The position numbers and the translations under genes were made by a program. A stretch of 64,000 nt of DNA from Pseudoselenomonas ruminantium. Its GTDB lineage: Bacteria; Bacillota; Negativicutes; Selenomonadales; Selenomonadaceae. The first letter of the stretch is position 1; each line of letters begins with the position of its first letter. The notes below the pieces were generated by a model, which was not told the origin of the DNA, did not search any database, and worked only from the letters and a program-made list of their open reading frames with translations. The stretch is taken from contig NZ_FRBC01000002.1 in the NCBI RefSeq assembly GCF_900142515.1, forward strand, positions 124,001 through 188,000. The letters run 5' to 3'. Shown here in pieces: positions 15,094-19,069 of the stretch.

Positions 15094-15303
15094 TCACCAT
15101 GCAGGCTTGCCTGTCTTTAACAAACTGTCAATATCCGCAAAGGCATTTTCAATGGCCTCTGTATGGTACAACCAGTAATTGTCATATATCCGCTTCGTTA
15201 TCCCCTTGCTGTCCCACTCCGCCAGTACCTCGCCGGTTTTCCGTTTCTTGTGGTCAGCATAATATTCCAACAAGTACATAAAGAACTTCATTTCCTCGGT
15301 CAT
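15094..15303 (-). CDS. DUF3791 family small protein
   Basis: 69 residues from ATG 15301-15303, which follows GAGGTG and lies one base after the stop of the preceding gene. The sequence (FMYLLEYYADHKKRKTGEVL, then IYDNYWLYHTEAIENAFADI) matches the DUF3791 pattern, small helical proteins that often stand beside DUF3990 genes. Function unknown; antitoxin or accessory role is inferred from the company it keeps. Last gene of the four-gene unit 16845 to 15094. Confidence 0.7.
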   Translation of the reverse strand: MTEEMKFFMYLLEYYADHKKRKTGEVLAEWDSKGITKRIYDNYWLYHTEAIENAFADIDSLLKTGKPAW

Positions 15304-15304
15304 A

Positions 15305-15550
15305 CTACTCACCTCGAATATAAACCGAATTGCGCGGGTCACCAGTTATTTTCTCCGCTTCCCAAATTTCCAGAATCGCGCCTGCCCCAAATTCCGTCAT
15401 GCCACAGTCCTCATTCTCCAACATCTCATGGGTCTTGGACTGGACAAACTTTTGCAAGGCTTCCATATAGCTGTAACCATATTTCTCCACCAACATATTG
15501 ACGACAGCTTCATTGTAATAATCGAGAATATCCGGGTCTAATCGCTTCAT
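15305..15550 (-). CDS. Small acidic protein of unknown function in the DUF3990 cassette
   Basis: 81 residues, mostly helical by composition. I do not recognise a named family with certainty. Notable points are a Tyr/Glu-rich N-terminus (YYNEAVVNMLVEKYGYSYME), SKTHEMLENE in the middle and the C-terminal DPRNSVYIRGE. The start overlaps the stop of the DUF3990 gene by 4 bases (ATGA), and the stop lies one base before the DUF3791 start, so the three proteins are made together. A partner or antitoxin for the DUF3990 protein is plausible (inference). Confidence 0.6.
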   Translation of the reverse strand: MKRLDPDILDYYNEAVVNMLVEKYGYSYMEALQKFVQSKTHEMLENEDCGMTEFGAGAILEIWEAEKITGDPRNSVYIRGE

Positions 15551-16026
15551 ACCTGCCGTCCCTCCTTAAAGACCAATAGTTGCAACGCCTTTTCTGTGCG
15601 AAACAGATACTGATCTTTTAATTTTTGCGGTAATAACAGTTGAATGGCCACATCCTCAGGAAAATAGCCCTTCAAGTAGTTGTTGACAGTACGAATGGCC
15701 TGGTCATTAGCCACAGGCCCCACCACTATATCGTAATCATCCACAGGCGGATTACCTGTGCGGTGCGCCGTTATATACCGCAGCCACTCCTTGTCTGGCT
15801 TGGTAAATTTCAACACTTTTACCACTTCAGCATAATTATCGCCAATTTCAAAGACAGATACCACAGGTGTCCCATTTTCACGCCGAGCCGTTGTACGAAC
15901 TGCCCACTTTTGCGCCTGCTCAAAATCACTGGTAAGATAAAAGCCTGCTCCGAAGTCCAAAAATCTCTGGGATTTCAGTATTTTAGGTTCGCGAACAACA
16001 ATATTGCTACCATGGTATAAAATCAT
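15547..16026 (-). CDS. DUF3990 protein, ADP-ribosyltransferase fold (candidate toxin)
   Basis: 159 residues, cytosolic. DUF3990 belongs to the ADP-ribosyltransferase superfamily. The H-Y-type signature can be read: H5 in LYHGS, Y30 in DFGAGFYLT (24-32), a conserved block DYDIVVGPVAND (97-108) and a C-terminal QYLFRTEKALQLL. These fit an NAD-binding transferase, so activity on protein, nucleic acid or a small molecule is possible, but no target can be read. It overlaps the downstream small gene by 4 bases and starts 3 bases after the 271-residue gene, so it is part of a compact unit resembling toxin-antitoxin loci. ATG preceded by GAGGT. Confidence 0.72.
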   Translation of the reverse strand: MILYHGSNIVVREPKILKSQRFLDFGAGFYLTSDFEQAQKWAVRTTARRENGTPVVSVFEIGDNYAEVVKVLKFTKPDKEWLRYITAHRTGNPPVDDYDIVVGPVANDQAIRTVNNYLKGYFPEDVAIQLLLPQKLKDQYLFRTEKALQLLVFKEGRQV

Positions 16027-16029
16027 ACA

Positions 16030-16845
16030 TTACCTCACATTTTCAATTCCCCTAATCCCTAAAAATTCTATATCTGCTTGTTGTGAACGATATAAAATCT
16101 TATTTTCCGCTGTTGGTCTTATCATCACACCAGCTATATATCCTTTGTATTCTTGTGGCAAGGTATTTGAATCTGCGAACATCTCCATTGGTCTATTAAC
16201 AATTACTTGTACCCAACACTTTCTCCCTTCTATATCTTCAAACCATAATTGCGGCATAATCCCCGGCATATCTGTGAACGACAGAATCTTATTCCCTTTC
16301 TTTTTTAATTCCGCAATAACAATAGAAATTCCCCAATTCAATAATTCCCACTCTGACACAGCATGTAATTCATCTCCTGTGATATCTGTAGGTACTACCT
16401 TTTTACCAGTTTCTGTGTTAATTAAATTCCACCCATCTTCTAAAGGTTGCATACTATCCATTTCAATTCTAAACAAACACGGAATAATATCATTTTTCTT
16501 GCATACTTCTAACTGATGTACCTTTAAGTCATGGGGTATTAATGAATCATACGGTCTTAAATTACTAAAAAAAGACTTATTTCCCTCTGAAATCAAATCA
16601 ACCAGCACTGAAAACACCCTATTTTTATATCTAAAATTCATAGAATCAAATGTAGGGCTTATTATTTGTGTCCTAAGCCAGCAAAAACCTTGATATGGAT
16701 TGGGTAATTTATTATTCTCTTTATTAAATAAGGCTTGCAAATTTTTGCCAGCAATAGACCAACCTTGAAGATATTCTCTACTTTCATTTGGCCTTTCAAT
16801 TATATGCCATTTCTTTTTAGGCTTTGATTTTAGAAAATCAAACAT
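16030..16845 (-). CDS. Uncharacterised 271-residue protein heading the DUF3990 unit
   Basis: I do not recognise this protein. It is soluble, begins MFDFLKSKPKKKWHII, and is rich in Asn, Ile and Lys; the gene is clearly more A/T-rich than its neighbours, which suggests recent acquisition. Features without a known meaning are WSIAGKNLQALFNK, a Trp/aromatic patch GFCWLRTQII and MPQLWFEDIEGRKCWVQVIV. Start follows AGAGGTG with a 7-base gap. The stop lies 3 bases before the DUF3990 start, so it is the first gene of the four-gene unit and may be an immunity, sensor or regulatory partner (inference). Confidence 0.55.
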   Translation of the reverse strand: MFDFLKSKPKKKWHIIERPNESREYLQGWSIAGKNLQALFNKENNKLPNPYQGFCWLRTQIISPTFDSMNFRYKNRVFSVLVDLISEGNKSFFSNLRPYDSLIPHDLKVHQLEVCKKNDIIPCLFRIEMDSMQPLEDGWNLINTETGKKVVPTDITGDELHAVSEWELLNWGISIVIAELKKKGNKILSFTDMPGIMPQLWFEDIEGRKCWVQVIVNRPMEMFADSNTLPQEYKGYIAGVMIRPTAENKILYRSQQADIEFLGIRGIENVR

Positions 16846-16887
16846 TTCAATTCACCTCTTATAATTTTTCATACAAAAGTAGTTGTG

Positions 16888-16893
16888 TATAAT
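16888..16893 (+). promoter_or_regulatory. Possible plus-strand -10 element ahead of the palindrome
   Basis: TATAAT at 16888-16893 faces the palindrome, but the -35 region 17 bases upstream (TTTTTC) is poor. Only a candidate. Confidence 0.25.
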
Positions 16894-16956
16894 CGCACTA
16901 TGAGAGGTTTAACACTCCCCCTTATGGAGAGACTATATGTTCGATGGCACTAAGTT

Positions 16957-17160
16957 GGGCAGGCGGGGATGGCTGGCGGGAGCGTGGGGCGGGGAGCGTT
17001 AAGAACTTATTTTTTGCCATACCGCTGTCCTATCGTGAAAAGCATACTGTTTGAGCGCAGCGAGTTTTTGCTTTTCACGATACTTAATTAAGAGCAAAAA
17101 ATAAGTTTAGCTCCCCGTCTCAGCGGACGCGAGTCATCCCCGCCTGCCCCGCGCCTTTTT
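16957..17160. repeat. Large imperfect palindrome, possible structured RNA or MITE-like repeat
   Basis: The 337-base gap 16846-17182 holds no convincing gene. It is filled by a long inverted repeat with nested perfect blocks: GGGCAGGCGGGGATG (16957-16971) with 17135-17149, GGGGAGC (16991-16997) with 17110-17116, AACTTATTTTTTGC (17004-17017) with 17094-17107, and TATCGTGAAAAGCA (17031-17044) with 17069-17082. The ends are very G/C-rich and the middle A/T-rich. On the plus strand the structure is followed by GCGCCTTTTTCC, like a terminator. Confidence 0.75.
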
Positions 17161-17182
17161 CCTCGCCCTCAAGTCGTGGTAA

Positions 17183-17680
17183 TCATATTCTGTCTCTCTT
17201 CGCATCCTCAGCAATCAGTTCTTCGAGCCGTCCCACTGTCATATCTTTCTCGGAATACACGGTAATGCCATGTTTCTGCAGCAGGGCCGTGGTTACGCCC
17301 TGGCCTTTGATTTTCTTGCCATCAAAATTGCCGCTGTGTACTTTTTTGACGCCGCAGGAGGGGCTGCCTTCTTTGAGAATGGCGACTTTCGCATGGTAGG
17401 CTTCGGCGATTTTGAGCACCTTGTCGGCTCCCGTCAGCAGATACTGTGTGGTGTCCATACCGTTTTCATCCACAGCCTTCGCCTTGCCCGTGAGGACTTT
17501 TTTCCCACTACCGCCCTGAATCTCCATCGCGGGCCTTGGGCATGGCAACATGGCGAAACATTCGGGACATACGGCAATAAACCGCCCCCGTTCATTGTAT
17601 TTTAACAACAGCTCATGGGTGTTGGCACCCCCACTGAATTTTACCTTATGCCCCAGTAAGCAAGCACTGACCAGAATCAT
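17183..17680 (-). CDS. DUF523 family protein
   Basis: 165 residues from ATG 17678-17680, which follows AAAGGGG; the open frame extends 13 codons further without support. DUF523 proteins are small cytosolic proteins of unknown function with conserved cysteines. Seen here: SACLLGHKVKFSGGANTH at the N-terminus, AVCPECFAMLPCPRPAMEI, and KEGSPSCGVKKVHSG, the last two holding the cysteines that could bind metal or an Fe-S cluster. Lies between the palindrome and the TnpB element. Confidence 0.85.
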   Translation of the reverse strand: MILVSACLLGHKVKFSGGANTHELLLKYNERGRFIAVCPECFAMLPCPRPAMEIQGGSGKKVLTGKAKAVDENGMDTTQYLLTGADKVLKIAEAYHAKVAILKEGSPSCGVKKVHSGNFDGKKIKGQGVTTALLQKHGITVYSEKDMTVGRLEELIAEDAKRDRI

Positions 17681-17769
17681 CTTCGATACCCCTTTCTCCG
17701 CTACGATAAATATATACAAATCTATACAGAATTACACATATTTACACTGTGATAACCTCACGGTTTATC

Positions 17770-17899
17770 TTCCTGATTCTTTGCGTCCGATTTTGCTGTT
17801 CCGAAGAACCAGCTACTCTCGTTTGATATAACGCTCCACAGGCTTAAATTCCCTAGTAGCGATAGGTACATACTTAGGTTTTCTTGAAAGTGAATTTTC
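17770..17899 (-). ncRNA. Candidate omega RNA at the right end of the tnpB element
   Basis: TnpB nucleases are guided by an RNA from the 3' end of tnpB and the flanking right end. Here the 130 bases after the stop include GCTGGTTC-TTCG-GAACAGC (17795-17813, minus strand), a 7-bp stem with one bulge and a UUCG loop. Scaffold and guide borders cannot be fixed from a single copy. Confidence 0.4.
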
Positions 17900-19069
17900 C
17901 TAAGCTGCTTTGTAATTTGCTAAGTTAATGGCAGCATTTAAATCCCTGTCCAGCTTGGCTCCGCATATAGGGCAGACATAGATACGGTCAGAAAGTTTCA
18001 AATCACTCTTAATGTGACCGCAATGACTGCAAGTTTTGGAGCTTGCATACCACCTGTCTACTTCTACGACCTTTATGCCGTACATTTCAGCCTTGTACTG
18101 AATCTGCCGCTTAAATTCATAGAATTTTTGCTTGGCGATAGCCTCTGCCAGATGTTTGTTCTTCATCATGCCTTTGACATTTAAATTTTCCATGACTATC
18201 TGAGATGGCTTGTTTTTCACTATCTCAGCCGTTGTCTGATGAAGATAATCCGTGCGGATGTCTGCCAGCCTTTTGTGCAGAAGCCGTATTTTTCTATTCT
18301 GCTTTTGTATGTTCCTGCACTCTCGGAGCGGTCTCTTCCATCTCAGACGGCGTTTTTTATCATGGCTCTTGGTATTGGCTTCCAGTTTGCGGGAGGCTTT
18401 TCTTTGTTCTCTCCGCAATTTTCTTTCCAAACGCCTGACTTCTGCAGACTTATTGATGTTCTTGTAGAACTTCGTCCTGCTTGCATCCTGGTTGGAAACA
18501 ACAGCCAGTTCCTTCACGCCAAGGTCAATGCCCAGACTCTCGCCTGTTAGTTCAATCTCTTTCTGCTCTACCTCGTAGCCAACAGACAAATACCAATGTT
18601 TACCATCAAATGAGATATGCGGGTTTGCATATTTCTTGTCCTTGGCTATTTTCGGCAGTGCCGATGCAGTCTTTACAATACCAATTTTCTCACCTTGAAA
18701 GCCGTTCTCTGTTCGTTTCAAGCTCTCGTAGTTGACGTAGAAACTGATTTTGCTTTTTCTGCGGCTCTTGAACTTAGGCTTGCCCGATATGCCTTTGATA
18801 TATCTCTTGAGTGCCAGTGCCGCATCTTTAACACCCTGTTTCATGACATTGCTACCGACTTCTTTCAGCCATGTATGTGTTGTCTTTTTCAGCACGTTAT
18901 TGATGTACTTCCTGACCTCGCTCTCGGTAATACGCCGACCTTCCTTGTATGCCTGTTCATTAGCATCAAGAAAGTAGTTGTATGCCCAGCGGTCAGTGCC
19001 AGCACTTTTCCAGAAAAGAATTTCCTGCTCCTTAGTCGGCAAAAGCCTTATCTTTATTGCTCTCTGCAT
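17900..19069 (-). CDS. tnpB: RNA-guided endonuclease TnpB
   Basis: 389 residues, full family length. TnpB is the RNA-guided DNA nuclease of IS200/IS605 elements and the ancestor type of Cas12. The split RuvC domain is intact: D182 in GIDLGVKELAV, E294 in IVMENLNVKGM and the final DRDLNAAIN (D374/D376). A zinc ribbon has C347, C350, C366 and C369. The N-terminal helix-turn-helix-like start MQRAIKIRLLPTKEQE is typical. Ribosome site GGTGGTGAG lies ahead. No frameshift, so the nuclease may be active. The lack of an adjacent tnpA means it would need a transposase in trans to move. Confidence 0.95.
   Translation of the reverse strand: MQRAIKIRLLPTKEQEILFWKSAGTDRWAYNYFLDANEQAYKEGRRITESEVRKYINNVLKKTTHTWLKEVGSNVMKQGVKDAALALKRYIKGISGKPKFKSRRKSKISFYVNYESLKRTENGFQGEKIGIVKTASALPKIAKDKKYANPHISFDGKHWYLSVGYEVEQKEIELTGESLGIDLGVKELAVVSNQDASRTKFYKNINKSAEVRRLERKLRREQRKASRKLEANTKSHDKKRRLRWKRPLRECRNIQKQNRKIRLLHKRLADIRTDYLHQTTAEIVKNKPSQIVMENLNVKGMMKNKHLAEAIAKQKFYEFKRQIQYKAEMYGIKVVEVDRWYASSKTCSHCGHIKSDLKLSDRIYVCPICGAKLDRDLNAAINLANYKAA

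Follow-up and report, generated by a model that had tools for sequence, protein, structure and literature searches.

A nested palindrome of Pseudoselenomonas ruminantium and its loop-tagged hairpin family: possible REP-like elements of single-stranded DNA

A nested palindrome of 193 bp in the genome of Pseudoselenomonas ruminantium (positions 16957-17149, plus strand, of the window, the whole stretch of 64,000 nucleotides that was analysed) is best explained, with a probability of roughly one half, as a copy of a REP-like hairpin repeat that is tagged by its loop, is under selection in its single-stranded DNA form and spreads in trans. Judged by comparing the copies, the loop is nearly invariant, and the paired arms differ between copies yet remain complementary. 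The element, chromosomal, mainly intergenic and about 190-280 bases long, is predicted to fold on one strand into a long stem with boxes in its internal loops and the apical box TGTYTGAGCGNAGCGAGTTT at its tip. The form under selection would mainly be the single-stranded DNA hairpin, which is favoured because the strand preference appears independent of the transcription of neighbouring genes and no regular promoter or terminator accompanies the copies. A putative trans-acting factor would recognise the loops and spread the hairpin as a selfish element, a scheme modelled on the mobilisation by RAYTs that is proposed for REP elements. Inserted copies would be inherited for a long time, drift by compensatory change and be lost by deletions in the palindrome, and an effect on neighbouring transcripts, if any, would be secondary.

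Results

The palindrome in the window

The palindrome consists of four inverted-repeat blocks (22, 13, 14 and 14 nt; 91%, 85%, 100% and 100% complementary), nested in order as the earlier note had described, and the G/C-rich ends and A/T-rich centre reported there are also seen in the sequence (Table 1). The plus strand of 16900-17182 folds at -130.3 kcal/mol compared with -90 +/- 5.0 kcal/mol for 200 dinucleotide shuffles, none of which equalled it (0/200; z -8.0). The T-run that had been noted at the end of the palindrome is present in this copy, its plus strand reading CGCGCCTTTTTCC, but it is not a family feature: of the copies from the genus, 5 of 33 have TTTT in a stretch of up to 25 nt downstream of the outer helix, and of the other copies 17 of 71. 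The G after the bulge GTTAA forms a G.U pair in the consensus structure, and the bulge is present in some Bacteroidota copies, too.

Table 1. Features of the palindrome in the window
Feature	Position	Strand	Basis
Whole nested palindrome (element)	16957..17149	+ (read as the functional strand)	repeats, fold, further copies; strand from stem mismatches
Outer helix, 5' arm (partner 17128-17149)	16957..16978	+	22 nt, 91% complementary; covaries between copies, sequence locus-specific
Outer helix, 3' arm	17128..17149	+	inverted repeat, alignment, covariation
First internal-loop box, 5' side, AGCGNAGCG-like: GCGGGAGCGT	16976..16985	+	alignment columns 52-62; motif enrichment in arms
First internal-loop box, 3' side, AGCGGACG	17122..17129	+	alignment columns 207-214
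Second helix, 5' arm (partner 17110-17122)	16985..16997	+	13 nt, 85% complementary; covariation
Asymmetric bulge GTTAA, facing a single A	16998..17002	+	alignment columns 76-80, consensus structure; conserved, kept unpaired
Third helix, 5' arm (partner 17094-17107)	17004..17017	+	14 nt, 100% complementary; covariation
Fourth helix, 5' arm (partner 17069-17082)	17031..17044	+	14 nt, 100% complementary; covariation
Apical box TGTTTGAGCGCAGCGAGTTT (family form TGTYTGAGCGNAGCGAGTTT)	17048..17067	+	box pattern scans; position from the match at C32:141048-141067
GC-GNA-GC mini-hairpin within the apical box	17055..17061	+	closing-pair count over copies
Large internal loop, 3' side, CTTAATTAAGA, partly conserved	17083..17093	+	alignment columns 165-175

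The palindrome is flanked by a gene of the DUF523 type (Pfam 2-thiour_desulf, 17183-17719, minus strand) and by an ORF of 271 aa (16030-16845, minus strand) without a Pfam match. A sigma-70-like sequence with 10 of 12 matching positions (16866-16893) is directed into the hairpin. In the window copy, a scan with a terminator consensus (loops of 3-8 only) yielded no terminator-like site, and Rfam covariance models gave no match over it. As to the proposed integration hot spot, the surroundings beside DUF523 differ between congeners, but nothing tied this variation to the palindrome as an att site.

Two neighbouring loci of the window were also noted. Immediately 3' of the gene for TnpB (17900-19069, minus strand; OrfB_IS605, Cas12f1-like_TNB), a RAGATH-18 RNA (Rfam RF03064, 74.7 bits) at 17770-17842 on the minus strand sits at the place expected for an omega RNA and may be a guide RNA of this kind. 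The DUF3990/DUF3791 cassette (15094-16026, minus strand) matches the PADLOC candidate defence families PDC-M13A/B/C and separates the DUF523 gene from that of a HAD hydrolase; the two adjoin directly in genomes G009, G012, and G016. A related gene was seen by eye next to the element in G020, G011, and G005.

Copies in the genome and the genus

The palindrome is not single-copy; a single copy, with neither covariation nor a transcript, is what the earlier note had named as refuting its view, and the further copies for which it had advised a search were detected. In the palindrome's own genome (G000; 3.1 Mb, 59 contigs), a DNA search revealed six further places with 69-81% identity, counted besides the element itself and its opposite strand, and the apical box pattern GAGCGNAGCGAGTTTT matched seven times with at most one mismatch, its backwards control never. 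The same genome contains three nearly full-length matches to the Y1 transposase family PF01797, located on contigs C49, C46, and C29, which differ from the contigs bearing the seven boxes.

Among 60 genomes comprising this one and its relatives, the exact box was found in 14, twelve of them belonging to the 22 genomes of the genus, most probably Selenomonas, and the backwards control gave one match in all 60. Searches with whole loci reveal more copies than scans for the exact box. For the congener G011, whose genome is a single contig, 23 hairpins (box with up to three substitutions) were recognised in 19 fetched regions, and two copies behind pyrG and one beside DUF523 outside these regions bring the total to at least 26. 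The genus copies displayed follow one plan with the same order of parts: a variable outer helix leads to an internal loop whose two sides carry AGCGNAGCG-like boxes, followed by the second helix, the GTTAA bulge, the third helix, the large internal loop, the fourth helix, and finally the apical box.

Distribution among phyla

In a collection of species genomes, the 20-mer TGTYTGAGCGNAGCGAGTTT was present in at least 117 stretches. The 80 matches listed represent eight phyla according to the record titles and our own assignment, with one match unassigned: Pseudomonadota, Bacteroidota, Bacillota, Desulfobacterota-type groups, Fusobacteriota, Cyanobacteriota (Gastranaerophilales), Patescibacteria (Magasanikbacteria), and Nitrospirota. 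Local alignment of the sequences around the box detected a paired stem, among the matches listed, in 17/17 cases from Bacillota, 26/34 from Pseudomonadota, 14/22 from Bacteroidota, 6/7 from Desulfobacterota-type groups, in the single cases from Fusobacteriota, Cyanobacteriota, and Patescibacteria (1/1 each), and not in the one from Nitrospirota (0/1). Hairpins tipped by the 20-mer on differing stems thus occur, within these matches, in seven of the eight phyla. In the 53 copies displayed, the box is at the tip of the fold in most; L068 and L094 are examples in which it is not. The loop is almost identical to the letter in Selenomonas, Variovorax, Flammeovirga, Lachnospiraceae, and a genome of the candidate phylum Magasanikbacteria.

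The number of exact boxes per genome ranged from 1 to 61, amounting to 533 in 35 genomes that had been picked for holding a copy; the backwards pattern was found twice. In even samples of two phyla, the exact 20-mer, a pattern that misses variants, was detected in 12 of 398 genomes from the phylum of the window (its own genome and two congeners included) and in 10 of 398 from that of Variovorax (the Variovorax in question included), and the backwards control was absent from both. The distribution is therefore wide but patchy, and genomes that hold the element often have many copies. With a single betaproteobacterial query, matches were obtained in two plasmid records and in no phage, and the 20-mer occurs in six IMG/VR viral contigs.

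Two genomes with many copies were inspected. With 36 exact boxes, the Peptococcaceae genome G093 (L244-L263) gives the impression of a recent amplification: cores are closely alike in the copies displayed, many of which lie close to or at the end of a contig. In some of its copies the two arms differ in type, as though joined by recombination. In the Lachnospiraceae genome G094 (L264-L283), the cores of 20 copies agree with a median of 0.77; the outer arms agree with 0.56 compared with 0.52 for shuffled arms, and each arm matches its own partner with a median of 0.77 and a lowest value of 0.52. The long outer arms in this genome are nearly unique to each locus and mostly pair with each other.

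By eye, a second, T-rich hairpin was seen 3' of the element in many copies from Pseudomonadota and Bacteroidota (L052, L056, L067, L076, L110, and others), of the type TTTGCTTACTTTCTTTG...CAAAGAAAGTAAG or TTTTTTGCTTCGTTTTTTG...CAAAAAACGAAG, and in some Pseudomonadota a third hairpin, GCCGGG...CCCGGC, was likewise noticed on that side.

Covariation and pairing of the arms

Of the checks recommended in the earlier note, folding gave z -8.0, and covariation strongly supported a structured nucleic acid. Alignment A1 comprised 33 Selenomonas copies drawn from 37 loci (L014-L048, L086, L128); L021, L022, and L034, which are from outside the genus, and L128, a duplicate whose core is identical to that of a congener copy, were left out. 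RNAalifold predicted 65 pairs, 51 of which showed at least one double compensatory change. With this structure fixed, 92.6% of the cells were paired compared with 71.0% in shuffles, and none of 500 shuffles reached as high a value on any measure. Sliding the partners by 1-3 columns reduced pairing to 39-49%, a control that favours the structure, since it was derived from the same alignment, in which copies of common descent are counted several times. Alignment A2 covered one orthologous locus with eight sequences, seven of them distinct. Both sides had changed in 11 pairs (26 cells), slid partners giving 0-1 pairs, and 11 pairs were reached by 4 of 500 shuffles; the measure 'further pair types' showed no excess over shuffles in A2 (352/500).

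Outside the genus, 132 distinct copies were collected, 125 of which had arms long enough for the pairing and mismatch tests. The own arms paired (at least 8 of 10 positions) in 95 of these 125, against a mean of 3.0 and a maximum of 8 in 200 shuffles of partners, and 98 distinct inner 8-mers were present among the copies. The corresponding figures for Selenomonas were 28 of 39, with a mean of 9.0 and a maximum of 14 for shuffled partners. Stems defined by local alignment were found in 95/125 copies outside the genus and in 53/1228 random positions of the same loci.

Strand asymmetry

Without a strand preference, G.T and A.C mismatches are expected in equal numbers within the stems. Isolated mismatches with two Watson-Crick pairs on each side were counted, all mismatches being scored alike. 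In other bacteria, 64 G.T, 20 A.C, and 148 other mismatches were found (p 1.6e-6), in Selenomonas 32, 14, and 45, respectively (p 0.011). The ratio of G.T to A.C was 32:14 in copies antisense to both neighbours, 17:3 in copies sense to both, 21:8 between convergent genes, 7:0 between divergent genes, and 19:9 at locus edges (p 0.087). Because G.T prevails over A.C regardless of the direction of neighbouring genes, the preference is intrinsic to the element; judged from these mismatches, the functional strand is the plus strand and is set by the element itself. This strand also folds better in 104/115 copies outside the genus with RNA parameters and in 98/115 with DNA parameters, the values for Selenomonas being 35/39 and 34/39. 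As an alternative, the excess of G.T could stem from strand-biased C-to-T mutation on an exposed strand, or it could fit an RNA. Counting G.T against A.C in stems offers a cheap test for which strand of a palindrome matters.

The apical box and its mini-hairpin

Among 216 distinct copies (box with up to three substitutions), the two closing pairs of the mini-hairpin are G-C and C-G in 204. The outer one is altered from G-C to A-T by a double change in ten Selenomonas copies, which are copies and not necessarily independent events, and by a single change in none; at the inner one, single changes are found in two of the 216 copies, one of them giving T-G. The loop reads GAA in 77, GCA in 69, GTA in 38, GGA in 15, and otherwise in 17 copies. 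GNA loops closed by GC are exceptionally stable in DNA. On the strand of the element, GCGNAGC is also enriched in the two arms, with 3.3 and 2.4 occurrences per kb in Selenomonas compared with 0.24 far away, and 2.8 and 3.1 compared with 0.71 in other bacteria; its complement is not enriched in the arms. Some control words were enriched as well: CGANGCG and GCGANGC in left arms of Selenomonas copies, and GCGANGC and GCCNAGC in one arm elsewhere, probably by overlap with the boxes.

Gene context

The element is mainly intergenic, in either orientation to its neighbours. Simple ORF calling assigned a position between divergent genes to 1/39 Selenomonas copies and to 9/88 from elsewhere, raw counts without an intergenic baseline; 44 further copies outside the genus were at locus edges. 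ORFs of at least 100 aa are overlapped by 3/39 Selenomonas copies and by 47/132 elsewhere, many of these 47 ORFs being likely spurious. Inverted pairs with their 5' sides facing each other recur, for example behind pyrG, in G094, and in G082. Three copies in the urease region of Flammeovirga are located between co-directional genes; they would be transcribed, and a role of the RNA is possible there. Behind pyrG, inspection by eye revealed an ordinary terminator in ten congeners without the element, and directly at this place the element in the bearers shown.

Promoter-like matches before the copies were not enriched, neither in Selenomonas (7/39 compared with 29/195 random stretches) nor elsewhere (9/109 compared with 53/545); such matches reading in from the 3' side were found for 8/39 and 19/109 copies, respectively. 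ORFs with a length of 60 aa or more in loci L049-L165 were compared all-against-all by blastp, which revealed no apparent shared neighbour gene, and no shared transposase was seen among the 40 largest clusters, which were judged by eye from one example each. The largest cluster, with members from 16 loci, looks mostly like translated repeat. Long ORFs derived from the repeat, containing words such as SERSEF and KLASLKQ or KLAALKQ, were noted in L101, L105, L147, L335, and L342 and are probably spurious.

Inheritance and loss of copies

Several congeners have orthologous copies in common that differ by compensatory changes, as seen partly by eye, and the shared copies are therefore old. By eye, copies appear to be lost through internal deletions of the palindrome: nothing but the outer arms, joined near the two AGCGNNGCGT boxes, is left in G020, G017 has a different internal deletion, and of the copy beside DUF523 the inner part is lost in G005, with truncated versions in G006 and G017. 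No precise empty site was found at the DUF523, pyrG, and G011 flanks, which were filled, internally deleted or unrelated, and no target-site duplication was seen in the flanks compared.

Discussion

The main rival to a DNA hairpin spread in trans is a structured RNA: copies would be transcribed by read-through or from a promoter, either their own or a distant one, and the plus-strand hairpin would be bound by a protein or would protect or attenuate transcripts. We regard it as rather unlikely. Strong covariation and conserved loops are what such an RNA would show, G.U is tolerated on the plus strand, and the RNA fold of this strand is the more stable one (104/115 and 35/39). Further points for it are the copies between co-directional urease genes, the sigma-70-like sequence upstream of the copy in the window (16866-16893), the TTTT that follows the outer helix in 17/71 copies outside the genus, and the position after pyrG, where ten congeners without the element have an ordinary terminator by eye. 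However, promoter-like sites before the copies are not enriched, the strand asymmetry is unchanged in copies antisense to both neighbours, TTTT follows in only 5/33 genus copies, and no Rfam family matches. Up to 61 copies per genome, with the exact box missing in most sampled genomes of two phyla, would be unusual for an RNA. Of the structured RNA with its own terminator envisaged at the outset, the structured nucleic acid is retained, its covariation being strong, but the terminator is not (TTTT in 5/33 and 17/71). Template switching from arm to arm could also maintain complementarity and produce double changes without selection for the fold. Such correction is known to be frequent at quasi-palindromes, and deletions at these palindromes were observed, but the asymmetric bulge and the loop boxes remain unpaired and conserved, G.T exceeds A.C on one strand, and the apical GC-GNA-GC is altered by double change at its own closing pair. 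As the whole explanation correction is improbable; it may still assist the complementarity of the arms.

Less probable again is a transposon remnant, such as a MITE, that has terminal inverted repeats and was mobilised by a transposase of the DDE or Y1 type. The element is repeated, intergenic, and short, and the 36 exact boxes of G093, with similar cores in the copies displayed and many at or near contig ends, would suit a remnant of this kind; against it, conservation is lowest in the outer arms, no shared neighbouring transposase was seen, PF01797 is missing in four genomes bearing the element, and no target-site duplication was seen in the flanks compared. The earlier comparison with a MITE-like intergenic repeat accordingly survives for dispersal and intergenic location, but not for a classic MITE, the outer arms being variable and the inner boxes conserved. 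Chance, or a single-copy inverted duplication, can practically be dismissed in view of the fold (z -8.0), the further copies, the pairing of own arms, and the genomes with multiple copies. The preferred reading, a loop-tagged DNA hairpin spread in trans, has points against it as well. No clean empty site or target-site duplication was found, the copies in the flanks compared being old and orthologous or partly deleted; no linked protein family is apparent by eye; and the distribution of the Y1 transposase PF01797 does not match that of the element. The G.T excess, for which an RNA or C-to-T bias would also account, the three urease copies and the six viral contigs weigh on the same side.

Tentatively, and with less confidence than the reading of the palindrome itself, all these copies might belong to one old class of loop-tagged hairpins in at least seven phyla, in which the loop boxes alone are conserved. 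The AGCGNAGCG motif, a GC-GNA-GC mini-hairpin of single-stranded DNA, would be read at the apex and in the internal loops by a putative enzyme that moves or copies the hairpin, and the stems would be free to vary if paired. If true, this would be a class of mobile elements defined by structure and not by termini, with a mobilising enzyme yet to be discovered. A nearly identical loop on stems that mostly vary from locus to locus points to a factor reading structure, and finding it would explain a repeat that has no Rfam match and yields apparently spurious ORFs.

Comparison with known systems

attC sites of integrons are strand-specific folded DNA with variable stem sequences and conserved unpaired features. 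The element resembles them in its conserved unpaired features, variable stems, and strand-specific fold; unlike in attC, its conserved part is apical and internal and not formed by outer core sites. MITEs are short, dispersed, and without a gene of their own, as is the element, but they keep terminal inverted repeats and target duplications, whereas its outer arms vary. No target duplication was found in the flanks compared, among which there was no clean empty site. With intrinsic terminators it shares the form of a hairpin at the 3' sides of genes and, after pyrG, their place; it is far longer, lacks a regular T-run, and occurs in either orientation to its neighbours.

In 18 other loci, Rfam searches at the gathering threshold detected only a 5S rRNA, and no name for the family was found in Rfam or in open-access literature, where a paper on REP elements alone was relevant (PMC3733652). 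REPs are described there as extragenic palindromes of 20-40 bp in many copies, carrying a GTAG or CGTC tag at one end, found in several phyla mostly between unidirectional and convergent genes, often as inverted pairs and with GT pairs in their stems; for GTAG REPs a link to RAYT, a Y1 transposase, is proposed. At the feet of the element, GTAG was found in 0/78 cases on either side and CGTC in 2/78 on each side compared with about 2.7 expected. A RAYT link as a requirement was rejected, PF01797 being absent from the element-bearing genomes G006, G011, G012, and G017; it is present in G008, G015, G019, and G021, where whole-locus searches show no copy, and also in G000 and other members. Set against these REPs (PMC3733652), the element differs in its length of about 190-280 bp, in having the apical loop as its tag, and in stems that differ at most loci, and it is like them in being intergenic, multi-copy, and patchy, in its presence in several phyla and in the GT pairs of its stems, with few copies between divergent genes, by raw counts, and with inverted pairs.
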